20,083 nt of DNA, from the IMG/VR virus record IMGVR_UViG_3300034280_000343, positions 1 to 20,083 of that record; one strand, given 5' to 3'. Positions within the stretch are counted from its first letter, which is position 1, and each line of letters begins with the position of its first letter. Positions 2,836 to 15,659 of the stretch are shown here, one piece after another. Below the pieces are notes generated by a model. That model saw only the letters and a program-made list of their open reading frames with translations. It did no database searches and was not told where the DNA came from. The position numbers and the translations under genes are program-made. This stretch comes from a virus.

Positions 2836-3786
2836 ATGGATATAACTTATAATGTTACATATACACCAGAAAACAGTTTAACGTATAGTTTCAGACAACC
2901 TGTTCCTATACGTTATGTCTGTCCTCCATTACCACCAGAATTTATTTTTGAAGTAGGTGATGCATGGAATTGTAATTTGTGTGGAAGTGATGTTGAGTTT
3001 TTTGCACCTTATTTGCGTGGTGATATTATTCCTTTTCAGACAGGATTTGTTGATGAATTTAATCAGCCTAATGATATTTTAACTGCAGGTTTTTTTAATA
3101 GTGTTGGTAGTGATTATTATATAAAGGTTAGTTTATTAGATTGCTGTGATGTTTTGATTAGTGATGAAATAGATGTATTTTCAGAATCTTGGTGGGTAGG
3201 ACATAGTGTTGGAACTGGTAGTCTTCAAACATGGTTTGTTAATACAGGATTATTCCCTACAGACTTGACATGTTGGAGATTAAAGATTGAGATTTACAAG
3301 AAAGATGATGAGGGTGATCCTGTTTTAGATACCGAAGTTTACACGCAATTCTTTAAAGAGATTCCAGAATGTGGATTTACTCAATCAGCATTGATTGAAT
3401 CAACTTATGCTGATTTTGACTGCAATGGTAACTATTACGGTACATTACAAAACTATTTAGGTCCTACAAATACAGCATACTTTAATAGCATGAGAGTATG
3501 GGGTGAACTTGAATGGATAGGCAGTTCAGAATCTGCAACATTGAATGATAGAAATGTAGTTATAAATAAGACAATTACAGAAAATTATAAGATTATTTCA
3601 GGTGTATATCCACCATATTTCATCAGAAAACTGGATCAAACGGTGAGAGGTAATTCAGTTACTGTTGATGGTAATGTATATCAGAATTTTGATTATGACC
3701 AGAAAAGCGATGAATCCAGAATGTTTGCTATTGACATAACATTTGATAAAAAATGTTTATTAGATAACAATCGCTGCGACATCTAA
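2836..3786 (+). CDS. Virion protein of unknown function, 316 aa, probably tail/baseplate
   Basis: The ATG at 2836 follows the previous stop by nine A/T bases and gives 316 residues. Aromatic residues and paired cysteines are frequent (CNLCG near residue 46, LDCCD near 102, a final CDI). The C-terminal third (IRKLDQTVRGNSVTVDGN and following) looks like a compact beta domain. There is no signal peptide, transmembrane segment or enzyme motif. It shares cysteine-rich, Asp/Asn-rich composition with its neighbours and lies just upstream of the putative major tail protein, so a structural tail or baseplate role is inferred. The exact function is unknown. Confidence 0.8.
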   Translation: MDITYNVTYTPENSLTYSFRQPVPIRYVCPPLPPEFIFEVGDAWNCNLCGSDVEFFAPYLRGDIIPFQTGFVDEFNQPNDILTAGFFNSVGSDYYIKVSLLDCCDVLISDEIDVFSESWWVGHSVGTGSLQTWFVNTGLFPTDLTCWRLKIEIYKKDDEGDPVLDTEVYTQFFKEIPECGFTQSALIESTYADFDCNGNYYGTLQNYLGPTNTAYFNSMRVWGELEWIGSSESATLNDRNVVINKTITENYKIISGVYPPYFIRKLDQTVRGNSVTVDGNVYQNFDYDQKSDESRMFAIDITFDKKCLLDNNRCDI

Positions 3787-3797
3787 AGGTGAGAGGG

Positions 3798-3816
3798 TTT
3801 GCTGACAGATAGCAAA
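3798..3816 (+). promoter_or_regulatory. Leader hairpin upstream of the putative major tail gene
   Basis: TTTGCT at 3798-3803 pairs with AGCAAA at 3811-3816 around a seven-base loop (GACAGAT). It lies 26 bases before the chosen start at 3843. The capsid gene leader has a hairpin of the same shape (10962-10978) with a T-A pair here where that one has C-G. An A/T-rich stretch then leads to the ATG. No terminator-like T run follows, so a role in RNA stability or translation is more plausible than termination. Confidence 0.4.
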
Positions 3817-3842
3817 TTTTGTTGATTTTAAATTTATTAAAA

Positions 3843-4718
3843 ATGAATTACGATTTTATAAAAATAATCACAGGTGTATTTGGACAATGCCCACCATGTA
3901 TTGACACGGACAATGTACCAAACTACCTATGTGACCCTTGTGATACTACAGTTTATTCTGGTGGTATTGCAGGATGGGTTGCAAAAAAATGTAAATATAC
4001 TTTTGATGACATTACTGATTCAGCTGAATGGTATGATGCTATTGAAGCTAAAGAAGTTTTCGGTAGAATCAATGGTTCCAGAATCAGCGGTGGTTTAACT
4101 GCTCCTGACTTTACTACTAAAAAACGTGGTAGTTGTGGTCAAGAAGAAATTGTTAAGCAGTCCAGAACTGTTTCTTTGACAGATGCTGAAAATGATGCAA
4201 ACTTTAGCATTGATGAAATGTATAATTTCTTAGCTATTCCTGCAAAGCATTCTGGCTATGAATTTGGTTTTGTTACTTGCGATGGTAGATTTTTAGGTTG
4301 GTATGAAAACGTTGCTGTACGTGCGTTTTATCAGATTGCAGAAACAGATGAAGATGATTCATACTGGACAGCTGAATTTAGATTTAACGAAAGTTTAGGT
4401 AACTTTAGTCAGCAGCAGTTATCATTCTTACTTGATCTACCTGCAAATGTTTGTTGGGTTGTATCAATTGCTTGTCAAGGTTTGGCAGGTGCTACAACTG
4501 TTCCTAATGGTGGTACATTGCAGATTGTTGGTACTGTTACTCCTGGTAATGCTACTAATCCAATATTGAATTATAGTGTTGTTAACGGTACAGGCACTGC
4601 AACAATTGATGCACTTACTGGATTGTTGACAGGTACTGGTGTAGGTACAGTAACAGTAATTGTTTCTGCTACAGATGCAAGTGGTGTTACTTGTTCTGTT
4701 GAAATTGAAGTAGTATAA
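3843..4718 (+). CDS. Putative major tail (tube) protein with C-terminal Ig-like domain, 291 aa
   Basis: I chose the ATG at 3843, which gives 291 aa. A TTG at 3819 would add eight residues but falls in the A/T leader next to the hairpin. Residues about 1-210 form the main domain, with paired Cys near the N-terminus (CPPC, CDPC) and a KKRGSCGQEE segment. Residues about 220-291 look like a bacterial Ig-like (BIG2-type) domain, with TLQIVGTVTPGN, TGTATIDALTGLLTGTGVGT and a final VEIEVV. Phage tail tube proteins such as lambda gpV carry a similar C-terminal Ig-like domain, and a strong terminator follows as expected for an abundant protein. The assignment is inference. Another abundant virion protein, such as a decoration protein, remains possible. 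Confidence 0.75.
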   Translation: MNYDFIKIITGVFGQCPPCIDTDNVPNYLCDPCDTTVYSGGIAGWVAKKCKYTFDDITDSAEWYDAIEAKEVFGRINGSRISGGLTAPDFTTKKRGSCGQEEIVKQSRTVSLTDAENDANFSIDEMYNFLAIPAKHSGYEFGFVTCDGRFLGWYENVAVRAFYQIAETDEDDSYWTAEFRFNESLGNFSQQQLSFLLDLPANVCWVVSIACQGLAGATTVPNGGTLQIVGTVTPGNATNPILNYSVVNGTGTATIDALTGLLTGTGVGTVTVIVSATDASGVTCSVEIEVV

Positions 4719-4737
4719 ATTGTTGATAAAAAGTCTG

Positions 4738-4766
4738 CAGGGTAGTGTAAAAGCTACCCTGTTTTT
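4738..4766 (+). terminator. Intrinsic terminator after the putative major tail gene
   Basis: CAGGGTAG (4738-4745) pairs perfectly with CTACCCTG (4754-4761) around an eight-base loop, followed by five T at 4762-4766. It separates the tail-type genes from the portal gene, whose leader directly follows the T run. The inner GGGTAG/CTACCC stem recurs in the terminator after the capsid gene. Confidence 0.8.
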
Positions 4767-4778
4767 AAATTTAACAAA

Positions 4779-6509
4779 ATGAATATAGAACAATATTTGG
4801 AGTTCATGGATGAAATTGCAGTTGGATTATTAAGTCCACCAATACATCCGTTTAAAGAGGAATGGAAGCGCATTTACGAAGAGATTAAACCCCATTTCTA
4901 CGGCAAAGTACCACCTGTTTTAGATGTTGCTTTCCCCAATGAAGAACCAAATATTTTAAATTACAGAAAAGCTACCTATCAGCCAAAGACAGAATCACCA
5001 CTTGTCAAGGCAATAACTGAACTGAATAGGTTGTTGAGTTCTGCAAAGCATTCCATAAAGTTTGAGAATATGGAGATGCAAAAGTATATTGAAGATAAAA
5101 AGTTTGGTGATCAGGATTTGACCAGATATTTTTTCAATATATTTATTCCTAACAGGATATTAGACCCGAACGCTGTTTTGTTGGTTAATCCTGTAAACAT
5201 AGTTGACGAAACACAAAAGGTGGATATTGAATTGTCAATAGTGCCATCTGACCGAATTATATTTAATGACCCTGACTATAAGCTGTTAATATATAAGGGT
5301 ATCAATAAGAAAAAATACAGCACGTTTGCATTACAGCAGCCACTTTGGTATCATGTTATAACAGATGAATTTTATGCTGAAATTAGAAGCATTGATGGTA
5401 AATCTGAATTGACTGTATTGTATCAGCATGAATCTGGTTTAATGCCTTGGATAACTTTGGGTGGTAGAGCAGTTCCACAATATGATATTTATGGTAATAC
5501 ATTTGTTGTTTATAAATCTGATTTTAGTCCTGCTATCCCTTATTTGAATGATGCTGCTATCTTTGACAATCAGCATAAATCAGTAATGTTATCAACCTGT
5601 TTCCCTATCAAATTTGTTGAGGGTGTTGACTGCCATAGCTGTCATGGTGTTGGTTACGTTATGGATAAGAATGACCATGACCACACAATAAGCTGTAATA
5701 CCTGTCATGGACATGGTAAGATATTATCTATTAGTCCGCTAGCTGCTTATAACATCAATCCGACTACAAACAGATTTCCAGATGCTAATGCAAGTACACC
5801 TGTTGATCCTATCAGATTCTATTCTCCTGACACTTCTACAATTGAGTTGACTAAGACTGTAGCCAATGAAAGTTTGTTGAAAGCAGAGAATGTATTGAAC
5901 CTAAACAGGACCATAAATTCTGTTCAGTCTGGTGTGGCTAAAGAGATGGACAGAGAATCTGAATATATTGAGATTGGTAAAATATCAGATGATGTTTATA
6001 GTAAATTAGAAGATTTGCTTTATATTATCCAGGGATTAGTTTTCATGGATAATGATAGCATGATAACGGTTAATAAGCCTATCAGTTTTGACTTAAAATC
6101 TGAAACAGAATTGTTAGCAGAGTTTACAGCATCACAGAAAGGACAGCCTGCTGCAATCAGATATGAAGCATACAGAAACTATATGGATAGAAGATTTAGT
6201 TCTGATGCTGTAGCCAGACAGATTGCTGATATTTGTGCAATGTACACTTCAATCTATCTATACACACCAGATGAAATTAATGTCATGATTGGTACTGGTA
6301 GCATTACTCAAGAAGATGCAGTAAAAGCTACATTTGTTTTTGATGCTGTTACTACATTATACTATGTTGAGAATTACGACATAATGACTAATGATTTTAA
6401 TGCTATCAATAATGAATTAGACCGTATCTTAGCACCTAAATTAGAATCAGCACAAAGTGTAATATTACCCGAACAACAAAGTTTTGAAGAGCAGAATCCA
6501 CCTGAATAA
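4779..6509 (+). CDS. Portal protein with inserted DnaJ-type zinc module, 576 aa
   Basis: The 576-aa length, acidic and helical composition and position just before a MuF-like gene fit a phage portal, the dodecameric ring at the DNA entry vertex. The C-terminal half has the long helical stretch usual for portals (about 365-470). The oddity is a pair of CxxCxGxG motifs, CHSCHGVG at residues 285-292 and CNTCHGHG at 306-313, separated by a His/Asp-rich loop (DKNDHDH). This is the pattern of DnaJ zinc fingers and should bind at least one zinc ion. A/T-rich bases precede the start, which sits 12 bases after the terminator T run. Portal identity rests on size, composition and gene order rather than on a decisive motif. 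Confidence 0.75.
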   Translation: MNIEQYLEFMDEIAVGLLSPPIHPFKEEWKRIYEEIKPHFYGKVPPVLDVAFPNEEPNILNYRKATYQPKTESPLVKAITELNRLLSSAKHSIKFENMEMQKYIEDKKFGDQDLTRYFFNIFIPNRILDPNAVLLVNPVNIVDETQKVDIELSIVPSDRIIFNDPDYKLLIYKGINKKKYSTFALQQPLWYHVITDEFYAEIRSIDGKSELTVLYQHESGLMPWITLGGRAVPQYDIYGNTFVVYKSDFSPAIPYLNDAAIFDNQHKSVMLSTCFPIKFVEGVDCHSCHGVGYVMDKNDHDHTISCNTCHGHGKILSISPLAAYNINPTTNRFPDANASTPVDPIRFYSPDTSTIELTKTVANESLLKAENVLNLNRTINSVQSGVAKEMDRESEYIEIGKISDDVYSKLEDLLYIIQGLVFMDNDSMITVNKPISFDLKSETELLAEFTASQKGQPAAIRYEAYRNYMDRRFSSDAVARQIADICAMYTSIYLYTPDEINVMIGTGSITQEDAVKATFVFDAVTTLYYVENYDIMTNDFNAINNELDRILAPKLESAQSVILPEQQSFEEQNPPE

Positions 6510-6512
6510 TAA

Positions 6513-8030
6513 ATGGCAGATTTAGATAAACCATACAGAATTACAGAAAGGGTTAACGGTATATTAGAGAAAACACTAAATACCGTTGAACCTAAATTTG
6601 TTAAGCAGGTAGTTGAATGGGTTGGTAAGTTCCAGACATCTTCTGGTAACTTGACAAGGTCTAAATCAAATAAGGATAGGATAGCAACTTTTAAGACAGC
6701 CATTGAAAGACATCTTCAACGTGCAGGTTATTATGACATGATTAGTAAGTTTCTTGTAGGATTTGATGAAATGTCAGCAGCACAAACGGAGATTCAACAA
6801 GATCTAAATGCTATCAGTTTAACAAAAAGTTTTTTGAATACCTTCAAACGTGTTGCAATAAATCAGGTTATTACTAACATGGAAAAACAAGGATTATTAA
6901 CAGCTTTAATAAATCCTTTGCGTAATCAGTTAAACATTGCAGTTAATCAGGGTAGTTCATTATCTGATACTGTTGCATCCATCAGAGGTCAGTTAGAAAC
7001 TACAGAGAAAAGACAGGGTATATTGAAGAAACTTAGTCTGCAGTCAACCAGAGATGCATTAGGGCAATATGATGGAGTTGTGAATGAAGCAGTCCGTAAA
7101 ACTTATAAACTTGATGCAATTTTATATGTTGGTAGCTTGGTTAAAGATTCACGTGCGCAATGTGAACGTTGGACACAATACATGGATAACGGCAAGCGTG
7201 GTCTGATACTATTTGAACAGCTTGAACAGGAAATAATGTGGGCTGATGCAAACGGTACTGGAATGATACCTAACACTACTCCAGAGAATTTCTGTCAAAA
7301 TCGTGGCGGTTTTAATTGCAGACATGTAGCCTATCCTGTTAGGAATCCGAATAAGATTACAACGGCAGGCAATGTTAGTGAAAAAGTAGATGCTGATATA
7401 AGTGCAAAGGAGCAACAGGCAGCAATACAGAAACTAAAAGTACCAGAAGTTAAGTTAGGTTTTGATAAAAAATATGATGATTTTATTAATAATGAAGAAA
7501 TTACTGATGAAGCTAAAATATTAATTGATAAATTAGAAAAACCTAAAGATATTATATCAAATAAAAAAGGTTCATATTATATTGCTTCTGATAAAAAAAT
7601 ATACATGGATAAAAATGATAAAAAAGATGTTTTTACACATGAATATGGACATCATATAGATAATATATCAAATAGAGTATCTCTAAGTAAAGAATTTATA
7701 CAAGCATCTAATGATGATGGTTTATATTTAAAAAATTTATTTAAAGGACAAAATTTATATGAAGAATTAAGAAAAGAATGGAAAGGTAAAAGAGAATATT
7801 ATGGTGCATCAGATATTTTAGATTCTTTATCAGCTGGTTTATTTTTTGATAAATATTATATGCCAGGTCATGGTAAAAGATATTATAAAAATAAAGAATT
7901 AAGACATAAAGAAAATTTTGCAAATATATTTGAAGCATGGTCAAAATCAGATAAAAATTCAATAAAAAATATAGAAAAATACTTTCCAAATCTTTACAAA
8001 GAATTTATTAAAATTATTGAAACATTATGA
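6513..8030 (+). CDS. MuF-like head morphogenesis protein fused to a C-terminal HExxH metallopeptidase (toxin-like) domain, 505 aa
   Basis: Residues about 1-285 look like a MuF/SPP1 gp7-type minor head protein. They are largely helical and end in the family's typical elements: DSRAQCERW at 212-220, then the NRGGFNCRHVAYPV block at 263-276 with C261, C269 and H271. From about residue 310 the composition changes to Lys, Asp, Asn and Tyr with much lower G+C. This C-terminal part contains HEYGHH at 376-381 (an HExxH zinc-peptidase site: H376, E377, H380), then DILDSLSAG at 434-442, GHGKRYY at 452-458 and KENFANIF around E467, a likely third zinc ligand. Such C-terminal enzyme domains on MuF proteins are described as polymorphic toxins of temperate phages. 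The domain could instead be a virion protease acting on host or cell-wall targets. The 64-aa gene overlaps its stop. Confidence 0.85.
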   Translation: MADLDKPYRITERVNGILEKTLNTVEPKFVKQVVEWVGKFQTSSGNLTRSKSNKDRIATFKTAIERHLQRAGYYDMISKFLVGFDEMSAAQTEIQQDLNAISLTKSFLNTFKRVAINQVITNMEKQGLLTALINPLRNQLNIAVNQGSSLSDTVASIRGQLETTEKRQGILKKLSLQSTRDALGQYDGVVNEAVRKTYKLDAILYVGSLVKDSRAQCERWTQYMDNGKRGLILFEQLEQEIMWADANGTGMIPNTTPENFCQNRGGFNCRHVAYPVRNPNKITTAGNVSEKVDADISAKEQQAAIQKLKVPEVKLGFDKKYDDFINNEEITDEAKILIDKLEKPKDIISNKKGSYYIASDKKIYMDKNDKKDVFTHEYGHHIDNISNRVSLSKEFIQASNDDGLYLKNLFKGQNLYEELRKEWKGKREYYGASDILDSLSAGLFFDKYYMPGHGKRYYKNKELRHKENFANIFEAWSKSDKNSIKNIEKYFPNLYKEFIKIIETL

Positions 8031-8221
8031 AAGAGTTAGTTGAAGAATATGTAAAAGTTTTTGGAGAAGAACCAGGTATTATTGGAATATATTGGAATAA
8101 TTTTGATAGGTTAGAAGAAAATATATCTAATGCTATTAAGACTAAAAAACCTTACAATGAGTTAGATTTATTAACTGATGAAGAAATAAAATTATTTAAC
8201 AAAGGTAAATTGATGTTTTAA
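8027..8221 (+). CDS. Small acidic protein overlapping the MuF-metallopeptidase gene; candidate immunity protein, 64 aa
   Basis: The ATG overlaps the preceding TGA as ATGA, giving 64 residues. It is acidic, with no signal peptide, membrane segment or cysteine. Visible features are an N-terminal helix (KELVEEYVKVFGEEP), a central IGIYWNN, and a charged tail (LLTDEEIKLFNKGK). It shares the low G+C of the metallopeptidase segment (about 25% by hand count over 8041-8160), and composition returns to the phage background at its end. Small size, acidity, coupling to a toxin-like domain and shared composition are what an immunity protein would show. No family is recognised, so this is inference. Confidence 0.75.
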   Translation: MKELVEEYVKVFGEEPGIIGIYWNNFDRLEENISNAIKTKKPYNELDLLTDEEIKLFNKGKLMF

Positions 8222-8661: not shown

Positions 8662-9495
8662 ATGGAATTTTTAAAAACAGTAGTAGAAAAATTAGGGTTT
8701 GATCCTGAAACATTGGATAAGCTATCCAAAAATGAATTGCCCATTGATGATGCTGTCAACGGTTACGTTTCAAAGATTGAAAAATCTGTAACTGAAAGAC
8801 TTGCAAGACAGATTGAAGAACAGAAGAAAACAGAATTGTTTGGTGCTGCCTATGCTAAGACAGAAAAGCAGATTGCAGATGAGTTTCAATTGGATTTGAG
8901 TAAATATGACACAGTAGATAAAAAAGACCGTTACAGAACGATTCTGAAAGATTTAAAACAGCAGCAGTTTGAGATGGTCGAAAAGCTGAAACAGGAATAT
9001 ACCACAGCGGACCAACAAAAATTACAGCAACTTACACAGCAACTTGAATTAGCTAATGCAAAGCTGAATGAGAAAGAAAGAATGATGCAGGATGCTATTA
9101 TGCAGGAACAGAATAAATTCAAAGACTATCTTAAAAATAATCAGATTGATGGAATCAGAAATAAACTGGTTGAATCAATTAAGAATCCAAGATTAACACC
9201 AAAAGAAATGAGAGCAGTTTTTGAAGCTGATGTGCGTGAGAATGGATATACTTTTGAACTTGACCAGGATAATAATGTCTGGGTTAATAAGGATGGTAAT
9301 AGGGTTAAACATCCATTGAAGCCTACAGAGAATCTGAAATATGAAACATTGTTTGAGATTGTTTCTACTGAAAATAATTTTGTTAAGCAGAGCAATGCTA
9401 CAGATAATACAACTAAGTTTGTGTTTGAAGAAAAAAGTAAAGATGGAATACATCCTGCAAGATTAAAATATCTTCAAGAACGTGGATTGATATAA
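8662..9495 (+). CDS. Putative capsid scaffolding protein, 277 aa
   Basis: The protein is highly charged and helical. Residues about 85-160 are rich in Gln, Glu, Lys and Leu with heptad-like spacing (LKQQQFEMVEKLKQEY, LTQQLELANAKLNEKERM), predicting a coiled coil. The N-terminus holds a short helical domain (EFLKTVVEKLGFDPETLDKL). Residues about 190-240 look like a small mixed domain (VRENGYTFELDQDNNVWVNK), and the end is basic (HPARLKYLQERGLI). Coiled-coil architecture, lack of Cys and position between the portal/MuF genes and the capsid gene are typical of scaffolding proteins. No separate prohead protease gene is recognised here. A terminator follows at once. Confidence 0.78.
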   Translation: MEFLKTVVEKLGFDPETLDKLSKNELPIDDAVNGYVSKIEKSVTERLARQIEEQKKTELFGAAYAKTEKQIADEFQLDLSKYDTVDKKDRYRTILKDLKQQQFEMVEKLKQEYTTADQQKLQQLTQQLELANAKLNEKERMMQDAIMQEQNKFKDYLKNNQIDGIRNKLVESIKNPRLTPKEMRAVFEADVRENGYTFELDQDNNVWVNKDGNRVKHPLKPTENLKYETLFEIVSTENNFVKQSNATDNTTKFVFEEKSKDGIHPARLKYLQERGLI

Positions 9496-11024: not shown

Positions 11025-12740
11025 ATGAGTATCAAATTAGCTGATGCGTGGAAAATTATAGACCTCACGCTCAATAATAACAACGGCATGCGTTCCATGC
11101 CATCTCCGAACATTGGACTTTTACAGCTTCTTACATCATCTGCTAACCGTGCTGCATCAAGAGTTAAACTTGGTAACGTACAGGCTATTGACCGTGGTGA
11201 TGGAAAAGTTTATAAAGTTTCACGTTCTTTCTTTCCAAGATTAGGACAGGTTAACAACGCTTCTGTAGAATATTGTCCTACAGATGGTGATGTTATCAAA
11301 CCTTTATTTGATGAAGTAGAAATCAAGAATCAGACTGTTTCAAGAAAAATCAAAATTGACGATGAGTTAATGAGATGTATTAAAGAAAACAGAGCAGATT
11401 ATCAGAATGCTTACATCAATGAAGTATTAAGAAACCACATTAACTTGTTAGGTCAGCAGGTTTCAACTGTTGTTGGTACTAATGGTTATATCGGTGGCTT
11501 TCCTAAATGTGATTGTGATAGCACACCTGCTGCTTGTCTTGATTTGCCATTGTTCATTTCAACTGGTTTAGGTATCAATCCTGTAGGTGAATCAATCCTT
11601 GATTCTATCAGAAAGCAGGCTGAAATTGATCAGCAGTTAGTTCTGGTTGGTGGTACTTTGCTTGACCAGTACAGAAAAGCACGTGCAATTGCATCTGGTA
11701 ATGATAACGGTTTTGATGCTTCTCTTTTGGACATCACACGTTCAATTTACTATGATACGCACATACCTGCTGCTATGGGTGGTAATAATAAAATTATCGC
11801 AATGGCTCCAGGTGCGCTTCAATTGATTACTTATGCTAAAAATCAAGGTCAATTCTCTTATGAGTTTGAAGACCAAATGAGAACAACTGTAGTTGACCCA
11901 TGGTTAGGTCTTACTCATGATGTTTACATGTCTTATAGCAAGTGTAATGCTGAAATCGAACTTTACATCCAGTTTGTTACGAATTGGGCAGTAGTTGGGA
12001 TGCCAAAATGTTGGTCTGCTGATGATTGCTTACTTGAAAACGTTCTTGATGTATTCTGTTTTGATGTTGTATGTGCTGATACTGGATATTGCGATATTGA
12101 AGCTGCATGTGGCAAAACATCTGTTTCTGCTCCTACAACTGCTGTATTCTGTGATAGTGCTGAATTATGTGTATCTCCATGTGATGCAGGATTTGTTTCT
12201 GAATGTGGTGGAGTTTACAATGTATTCAATTATGTAGGTTCAACATATGAAGAAGTAAGTGCAGTAGTGATCAATGGTATTCCTATCAGTTTAGGTGGTG
12301 TATTTGACTTGACTACATCTTCTGGTGGTAATGCTTTCATGGTTGCTTTGCAGGCTGCTCTTTCTAACATACCAAGCATTCTAAGTGTTTCTGGTGGTTG
12401 GGATGGTACACAGACAGTTGTAAACATTGTAACTAACAATACAATTTTGACTATCAGCTTATTTGATAATGCTGCAGGTTATATTGCTTTGTATCTTGAA
12501 GTATCTGAACTTTGTCACATTGTTAGCACATCTGTAGCTTCTACTAATGCAACGTTGACAAATCTTGATTGGACTGCTCCAGGACCTGATACTTTTGATG
12601 GTGCTCCAGGTGCAACAATCTTTACAGCTGGTTATGTTGGTACATACAGTAATTTCTTTACTAACAATGATGGTGCTTATCAGTTAGTAATTACAGATTC
12701 TGTTGCTTGTACTGATACTTACAATGCTACAGTAGGATAA
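11025..12740 (+). CDS. Major capsid protein with Cys-rich linker and C-terminal extension, 571 aa
   Basis: Its position after the scaffold, with its own promoter, structured leader and following hairpin, suits the most abundant virion protein. Residues about 1-325 have the look of an HK97-fold capsid protein: a helical N-terminal arm (DAWKIIDLTLNNN), an E-loop-like segment (GDGKVYKVSRSFFPRLGQV), a long helical part (RADYQNAYINEVLRNHINLL), and a P/A-domain core ending about NWAVVGMPKCW. Residues 329-394 carry ten cysteines (329, 335, 345, 350, 356, 362, 376, 382, 386, 394). Residues about 398-571 are a Thr/Ser/Gly-rich beta extension, probably surface-exposed like a decoration domain. No separate protease or decoration gene is recognised in this window. 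The fold call is by pattern and context. Confidence 0.82.
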   Translation: MSIKLADAWKIIDLTLNNNNGMRSMPSPNIGLLQLLTSSANRAASRVKLGNVQAIDRGDGKVYKVSRSFFPRLGQVNNASVEYCPTDGDVIKPLFDEVEIKNQTVSRKIKIDDELMRCIKENRADYQNAYINEVLRNHINLLGQQVSTVVGTNGYIGGFPKCDCDSTPAACLDLPLFISTGLGINPVGESILDSIRKQAEIDQQLVLVGGTLLDQYRKARAIASGNDNGFDASLLDITRSIYYDTHIPAAMGGNNKIIAMAPGALQLITYAKNQGQFSYEFEDQMRTTVVDPWLGLTHDVYMSYSKCNAEIELYIQFVTNWAVVGMPKCWSADDCLLENVLDVFCFDVVCADTGYCDIEAACGKTSVSAPTTAVFCDSAELCVSPCDAGFVSECGGVYNVFNYVGSTYEEVSAVVINGIPISLGGVFDLTTSSGGNAFMVALQAALSNIPSILSVSGGWDGTQTVVNIVTNNTILTISLFDNAAGYIALYLEVSELCHIVSTSVASTNATLTNLDWTAPGPDTFDGAPGATIFTAGYVGTYSNFFTNNDGAYQLVITDSVACTDTYNATVG

Positions 12741-13181: not shown

Positions 13182-14165
13182 ATGCTTACTAATTCTCCAT
13201 CTTGTTTAGATAATTATATTATTTTTTACAATGGCTGTTATGGTGATGATACTCCTGTACCAACATCTGGTTACTATATTGAAAATCTTGAGGGATTGAC
13301 AATAGAGAATGTAGCCATGATTACACCAGAACTGCTTATATCTGCAACACAAACAATTAAAGAAAAGATGTTGTTTGCAGCAAGTATAGTAGAAAACAGA
13401 TTAAAAGCTATTCTAAACAGCAGAGGGATTAAGCTGAACACATTAGGTAAATTATATAGTGCCTGTTCTGTTACATCTGTAGCTGATTTGCCTTCACCAT
13501 TTGATCGTGGTATAAGAATATCAAAGAAGTGGTTAAATAGTCCACAGAGCAGAATATTTATAGATGCAGTACGTTTTAAAAGTAAGGTTAACGGACCAAG
13601 TGTAATTAAGGTAAAAGATTTGTTAGGTAATATCTTATGGCAGCAAAATACAGTTTGCATAGCAGAAACTGAACCTACTGTTTTTATTAAGAAACACTTT
13701 GAACCAGATATTATCCTAGTCACAATTGATACTACATCTATACAGCCATACATTTATACATGTGATAAAACAACTAACTGCACTCCATGTGATGCAAATA
13801 TAAACTTAGCTATTGATGGATGGAATGGTACTGGTGTTGGTCCTAATGGATATGTTAGTGTTTGTGTTAGACTTGATTGTACTGATAAGGATATTATATG
13901 TCAGTTTTTGGATAGACTAGGATTGACAATATTATATCAGACAGGTGCGCAAATAGCAAAAGAATGGTTAGCACCTAATAATAGGCTTAACATCATCAAA
14001 ACACATGGTCTTGAATGGGCATCACAAATGGCTACAATGTGGGAGAGTTTAAGCAATGAGTATTTGAATAATGAAATTGACAATATAATACAGATACTTG
14101 AAACGGATAAGTTCTGTTATAGATGTGAAACCAGATTGAGAATGTACACAATGTTACCTGGATAG
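13182..14165 (+). CDS. Head-tail connection-region protein of unknown function, 327 aa
   Basis: The gene starts two bases after the previous stop and runs to one base before the next start. Residues about 45-75 are helical (ELLISATQTIKEKMLFAASI), about 105-190 look beta-rich, and the C-terminal third is helical with a cysteine pair (CYRC) near residue 315. A TNCTPC element sits near residue 205. There are no export, membrane or catalytic motifs. Position directly after capsid genes and before a neck-type protein suggests an adaptor or connector, or a protein lining the neck. I do not recognise the family. Confidence 0.75.
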   Translation: MLTNSPSCLDNYIIFYNGCYGDDTPVPTSGYYIENLEGLTIENVAMITPELLISATQTIKEKMLFAASIVENRLKAILNSRGIKLNTLGKLYSACSVTSVADLPSPFDRGIRISKKWLNSPQSRIFIDAVRFKSKVNGPSVIKVKDLLGNILWQQNTVCIAETEPTVFIKKHFEPDIILVTIDTTSIQPYIYTCDKTTNCTPCDANINLAIDGWNGTGVGPNGYVSVCVRLDCTDKDIICQFLDRLGLTILYQTGAQIAKEWLAPNNRLNIIKTHGLEWASQMATMWESLSNEYLNNEIDNIIQILETDKFCYRCETRLRMYTMLPG

Positions 14166-15320: not shown

Positions 15321-15659
15321 ATGAATTGTTGTCCTTGTTGTGAAAAGACTTTGTATTTAGGCTGTTATAATCCATGTGGGATGGTCATAGATTTTGATAT
15401 GATTGTCACTATGGGTATGGCAGGTGACTGGACATTGCAATTAACTTTTGGCAGACAGATACAAAAATTTGTTGTCAGTTTGGCAGTTGGTGATGATATA
15501 AAATTTAACCTGTCAAATTTGAATGAATATTACACTTATTCATTAACTTTGCTTGATCCAAACGGAGATATAGTATTAGTTGAAGTGAATGGTGAAGAAT
15601 ATGATTGTTTTGAGTTTAAAACCACAATTGGTGCTATAAATGGAATTGTTATATCTTAA
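15321..15659 (+). CDS. Small protein with Cys-rich N-terminus, 112 aa
   Basis: The protein starts MNCCPCCEKTLYLGCYNPCG, six cysteines in 19 residues, which could be a zinc knuckle or a disulfide knot. The rest looks like a compact beta sandwich (WTLQLTFGRQIQKFVV, YYTYSLTLLDPNG, CFEFKTTIG). There is no signal peptide or membrane segment. It sits between the neck genes and the first fibre gene, so a fibre attachment or tail role is possible. Cysteine richness at this density is unusual even among its neighbours. I do not recognise the family. Confidence 0.73.
   Translation: MNCCPCCEKTLYLGCYNPCGMVIDFDMIVTMGMAGDWTLQLTFGRQIQKFVVSLAVGDDIKFNLSNLNEYYTYSLTLLDPNGDIVLVEVNGEEYDCFEFKTTIGAINGIVIS

Follow-up and report, generated by a model that had tools for sequence, protein, structure and literature searches.

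What is a pair of cysteine-glycine knuckles doing in the middle of a phage portal protein, and is it likely to hold a metal? The window analyzed here is a viral contig of 20,083 bases, taken at its full length, in which an ORF of 576 amino acids (4779-6509, + strand) contains two copies of the motif CxxCxGxG: CHSCHGVG at residues 285-292 (5631-5654, + strand) and CNTCHGHG at residues 306-313 (5694-5717, + strand), with a CX2C knuckle pair spacing shared by the window family. Translation of positions 5631-5717 gives CHSCHGVGYVMDKNDHDHTISCNTCHGHG (residues 285-313), in exact agreement with a first-pass annotation, which had proposed a portal protein carrying a “DnaJ-type” zinc module and had suggested ring stabilization, scaffold binding, or use as a folding handle as its role. 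A single CxxCxGxG arose in 8 of 200,000 shuffles of the protein and a pair in none of 200,000; scanned as a nucleotide pattern, the motif occurs in the window at the two knuckle sites only, and zero times in the reversed window.

The protein's identity had to be approached through its relatives, since direct searches miss it. Run against PHROGs and Pfam, hmmscan returned weak matches to the cysteine module and no portal match; tblastn against phage isolates gave nothing meaningful, bacterial genomes scanned with the window family gave zero matches, and a PDB profile search with the window family alone gave only cytochrome-like chance matches. IMG/VR holds about 95 relatives of the window protein (53-98% identity), some with a C-terminal extension matching the C-terminus of the annotated portal of Flavobacterium phage tant8-1, a phrog_7376 member (E 4.7e-184) with four cysteines at the same place as the window module. 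This extension, a domain of about 60 residues (GSVGGVQGILEIQ...YGIPNEEAKRILG) seen in relatives L023 and L052 and also in L088 and L089, spans portal families: it occurs in some window-family proteins, in tant8-1, and in the Mu-type portal of FPSV-S1; the window copy lacks it.

Profile comparison by hhalign matches the window family to phrog_7376-type portals at 95.2% (97.3% with deeper profiles; 0.1% in the reversed control). Cutting the cysteine module out of both families still leaves 95.1% (P 3.3e-8), so this homology to annotated portals is independent of the module; with smaller alignments the scores are lower (59.7% module-free, 54.6% in another small-profile comparison). The phrog_7376 HMM matches the corresponding ORF of a 94% identical relative, L005 (E 4.7e-9), and leaves the window ORF itself unmatched; identity to phrog_7376 portals is about 15%. 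These portals include those of Bacteroides phages B40-8 and B124-14, Flavobacterium phages Fpv5 and tant8-1, Croceibacter phage P2559Y, and Polaribacter phage P12002L. They and a solved portal, PDB 9wwa, share with the window protein a colinear profile, four cysteines between the stem helices, a P-x8-C register, and an HxxGxxP landmark, in the window H217-x2-G220-x2-P223 (5427-5447, + strand; HDVGYCPA in phrog_7376 portals).

The gene neighborhood is of the expected kind. Directly downstream of the ORF, where such a gene would be expected beside a portal, is a Mu F-like head morphogenesis gene (6513-8030, + strand; phrog_4728, E 4.1e-9, residues 309-505); we read its N-terminal half as Mu F, and a variable HExxH domain makes up the C-terminal half. 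A coiled protein without cysteine (8662-9495, + strand) is the probable scaffolding protein, going by position and composition, and the probable major capsid protein (11025-12740, + strand) is assigned from position and size, with no family match. A phrog_2 terminase is present in eight of eight long relatives (E about 1e-22); a PF03237 search detected no terminase in the relatives. Together with the fold comparison described below, the profile match bears out the portal assignment, and ORF 4779-6509 almost certainly encodes the portal protein.

The Mu F-like gene has a peculiarity of its own. Its C-terminal half (HExxH in FTHEYGHHIDN) is present in only 7 of 108 relatives (L016, L041, L044, L051, L075, L081, L086), and a 64-residue ORF (8027-8221) is found in exactly the same seven; L003 and L004, with portals at 98% identity, have neither. 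Neither the C-terminal half nor the small ORF has a Pfam match. The two have the look of a polymorphic toxin of the Mu F kind accompanied by a gene for immunity to it.

Where in the portal do the knuckles lie? An AF2 model of the monomer, built from a merged alignment of 51 rows in which the window family was joined to other portals, reached a pLDDT of 71.8 and has the features of a portal fold: stem, clip, and stem in that order, a tunnel loop, and a long wing helix. All 17 Foldseek matches in the PDB with E below 1e-3 are portals, as are, alone or as part of larger entries, all 50 rows among the VIA-align matches listed; the best is the SH-Ab15497 portal (Z 19.6, rmsd 5.2, 366 residues aligned), and T7 gp8 (Z 18.5, 4.0, 314) and SPP1 gp6 (Z 16.8, 4.0, 355) have the same fold. 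Since the model rests on the merged alignment, fold match and profile evidence overlap in part. A model built earlier from only 12 close relatives was of low quality (pLDDT 39.6): Foldseek placed portals in its first three ranks, at non-significant E-values of at least 0.15, and VIA-align gave nothing above Z 4.9. The solved portal 9wwa is not among the fold matches of the window model.

By AF2/DSSP the predicted order is helix 250-272, strand 277-280, the module with strands 293-295 and 303-305, strand 315-318, helix 353-373, the SGVA gap, and helix 393-422. This is the canonical sequence of stem, clip, stem, tunnel loop, and wing helix, which would make residues 250-272 (5526-5594) and 353-373 (5835-5897) the first and second stem helices, residues 273-352 (5595-5834) the clip region, with 316-350 at low confidence, and residues 382-392 (SGVA at 384-387) and 393-422 the tunnel-loop region and long wing helix (together 5922-6044), all on the + strand. 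The element order therefore places the cysteine module, very probably, in the clip domain between the two stem helices. Model confidence is middling over the module (block pLDDT 62-74) and below 50 in the remainder of the clip. In merged alignments of the window family and phrog_7376-type portals, the four cysteines stand in register between the stem helices.

Far from being unconserved in close relatives, all four cysteines occur in 110 of 110 window-family ORFs (74 distinct). Both outcomes that the first-pass annotation had named as telling against it, a missing portal match and unconserved cysteines, failed to appear. The window family, however, conserves almost all cysteines of its main virion genes, so conservation within it proves little and the cross-lineage evidence carries the weight. 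The module is present in the portals of other Bacteroidota phages, among which the first-pass annotation had proposed to look for it: all four cysteines are found in 96 of 97 Bacteroides-type portals, in 23 of 23 full-length Flavobacterium-type portals, and, among isolates, in the portal of Polaribacter phage P12002L (CTKCGGEG..CSSCGGDG), as well as in those of Pseudanabaena phage Pan5 and one Rhodobacteraceae phage. The sequence of 9wwa has the same four (C..C-DGG..CPKCG). In a 66-row alignment across lineages, only P223 and G385 (both 66/66) exceed the four cysteines (65/66), which are level with G455. The portals of crAss001, 11b, phiST, and FPSV-S1, also from Bacteroidota phages, are canonical ones and, unlike that of the window, lack the CxxC pair.

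Some spacings vary. The register P276-x8-C285 is ungapped in every lineage among the alignment rows listed, and first-pair spacing and loop length differ by lineage (CX2C, CX3-4C, CX9-10C): most phrog_7376 members have CX4C or CX10C where the window has CX2C, a form it shares with the Polaribacter, Pan5, and Rhodobacteraceae members. The portal tree places the window family, the Flavobacterium type, the Bacteroides type, and the Polaribacter/Pan5/Rhodobacteraceae group in well-supported separate clades, and the presence of CX2C in the first and last of these suggests, without proving, that it is the older form of the first pair. The His/Asp loop described between the knuckles in the first-pass annotation holds for the window's own clade; most relatives, for example RVPDPNNYDNSIT, have no histidines there. 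Two further portal ORFs, L158 and L178 (IMGVR_UViG_3300020045_008030), lie at opposite ends of a contig and have one stop each in the aligned stretch, which could be recoding, frame shift, or assembly error.

The sole exception to the cysteine pattern is L183, a Bacteroides-type portal (ORF 3699-5516) in which the four cysteines are replaced by D, D, A, and K, with the loop retained; at least one lineage, then, can do without the site. The four cysteines are present or absent together, around a loop whose length varies, and are best understood as a single structural metal site, a reading which we put at roughly 85%; if a metal is bound, it is very likely zinc. Retention of all four in separate lineages, and their joint loss in L183, support the earlier proposal of a zinc-type module; metal binding itself is inferred.

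Do the sequences allow other chemistries? As read in the window alone, CHSCH and CNTCH could be two CXXCH sites for c-type haem, and cytochrome c turns up among the weak matches, both as profiles and as chains. Within the window family, however, the residue after C288 is N in 92 members, H in 12, and F in 6, and that after C309 is H in 40, L in 38, S in 21, N in 6, Q in 3, and K in 2; the missing CXXCH histidines rule out a c-type cytochrome for the family, and the chance of a haem role is close to nil. Iron, in a rubredoxin-like site or an Fe-S cluster, is quite unlikely: CxxC pairs can bind it and the metal is not readable from sequence alone, but the CxxCxGxG form and the structural position are typical of zinc, and no redox role in a clip is known, as far as we infer.

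Structural disulfides in the mature virion, with no metal site at all, are likewise an unlikely explanation for the cysteines. The virion proteins of the window lineage are rich in conserved cysteine, and virion disulfides have precedent in the gp57 dimer of crAss001 (PMC10172136). Against this, a CxxC pair with glycine after it is the usual zinc knuckle, and the four cysteines come and go together. Portals moreover assemble in a reducing cytoplasm. The wealth of cysteine in this virion is unusual in itself: in five virion genes (2836-3786, 3819-4718, 11025-12740, 13182-14165, and 15321-15659) nearly all cysteines, several CxxC pairs among them, are conserved in 48-96 relatives (10/10 in 2836-3786).

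The likeness to DnaJ raises a different possibility, a captured zinc domain serving as chaperone, folding handle, or scaffold-binding site. PF00684, the DnaJ central domain, is the best Pfam match to the window protein (E 4.6e-4) and has the same CxxCxGxG knuckles, and DnaJ-like fusions do occur in phages, for example in HMO-2011-type DNA polymerase (PMC9038755). The match scores 20.8 bits against a Pfam gathering cut-off of 32.7, however; there are two repeats rather than four and no J domain, and homologues with CX4C or CX10C first pairs do not match PF00684. Score and repeat number rule out membership of the family, and “DnaJ-type” describes a resemblance. Capture of such a domain is very unlikely, and the roles that would go with it fare no better: since the scaffold acts inside the procapsid and the clip faces outward, scaffold binding is improbable, and support for a folding handle is absent.

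This leaves ring stabilization, of the three suggested roles the one best supported, with the predicted clip position as its basis. In the proposed mechanism, both knuckles would build one tetra-cysteine site, most likely for Zn2+, and the metal would staple the clip loop, whatever its length in a given lineage, into a rigid lobe. A dodecamer would have twelve of these lobes, which would make the clip ring stiffer at the place where neighboring subunits interlock, and the ring would offer a docking place first to the terminase motor and afterwards to the adaptor. In solved phages the clip lies outside the capsid, inserted in the adaptor (PMC12886913), and in JBD30 a clip loop interlocks neighboring portals and the adaptor C-terminus is wedged between clips (PMC11445458). 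The position of the module in the clip thus suggests stiffening of the clip ring and of its terminase- and adaptor-docking surface, and the main role is probably structural, to make the clip or its docking surface more rigid.

How much of this concerns the ring itself, and how much its partners? Alternatively, the module may serve specifically as the surface at which the packaging motor or the adaptor docks or is recognized; the metal would then keep the module in shape and would not brace the ring. In solved phages the adaptor attaches at the clip (PMC11445458, PMC12886913), and lineage-specific loop lengths and first-pair spacings are what a partner-specific surface might show; but it is the knuckles that are conserved and not the loop surface, and L183, if functional, works without the module. 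We regard this as possible and somewhat doubtful, and favor the stiffening role. In a bolder and improbable extension, the putative zinc site of the clip would work as a functional switch: the lobes would form the surface on which motor is handed over to adaptor, loss or change of metal or lobe would reset the choice of partner, and one lineage would control the end of packaging via metal. If this were true, a portal lineage common to phages of Bacteroidota, cyanobacteria, and Rhodobacteraceae would end packaging by way of a metal site.

A parallel is found in a different protein of the phage neck. In the Herelleviridae stopper (phage 812), a tetra-cysteine zinc site stabilizes a neck loop (PMC12886913), as the predicted zinc in the window portal might; the stopper site differs in its protein, in its motif (CPC...CxxC), and in being reported as conserved only in Herelleviridae (PMC12886913). 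An open-access literature search turned up no paper that mentions a metal site in the clip of a portal. The portal family and its solved member 9wwa are already known; the four-cysteine clip module is real and apparently undescribed. The portal clips of T7 and SPP1 are not known to contain a zinc module.

For this uncultured phage family, the analysis identifies a portal that ordinary searches miss, and the four-cysteine signature is an aid to annotating further portals now called hypothetical. The portal is a well-studied hub of phage assembly, and here a putative metal site in its clip is conserved across a portal lineage that includes cultured phages: the module is a small, mutable element with which it may be tested how the clip ring serves first the motor and then the adaptor.
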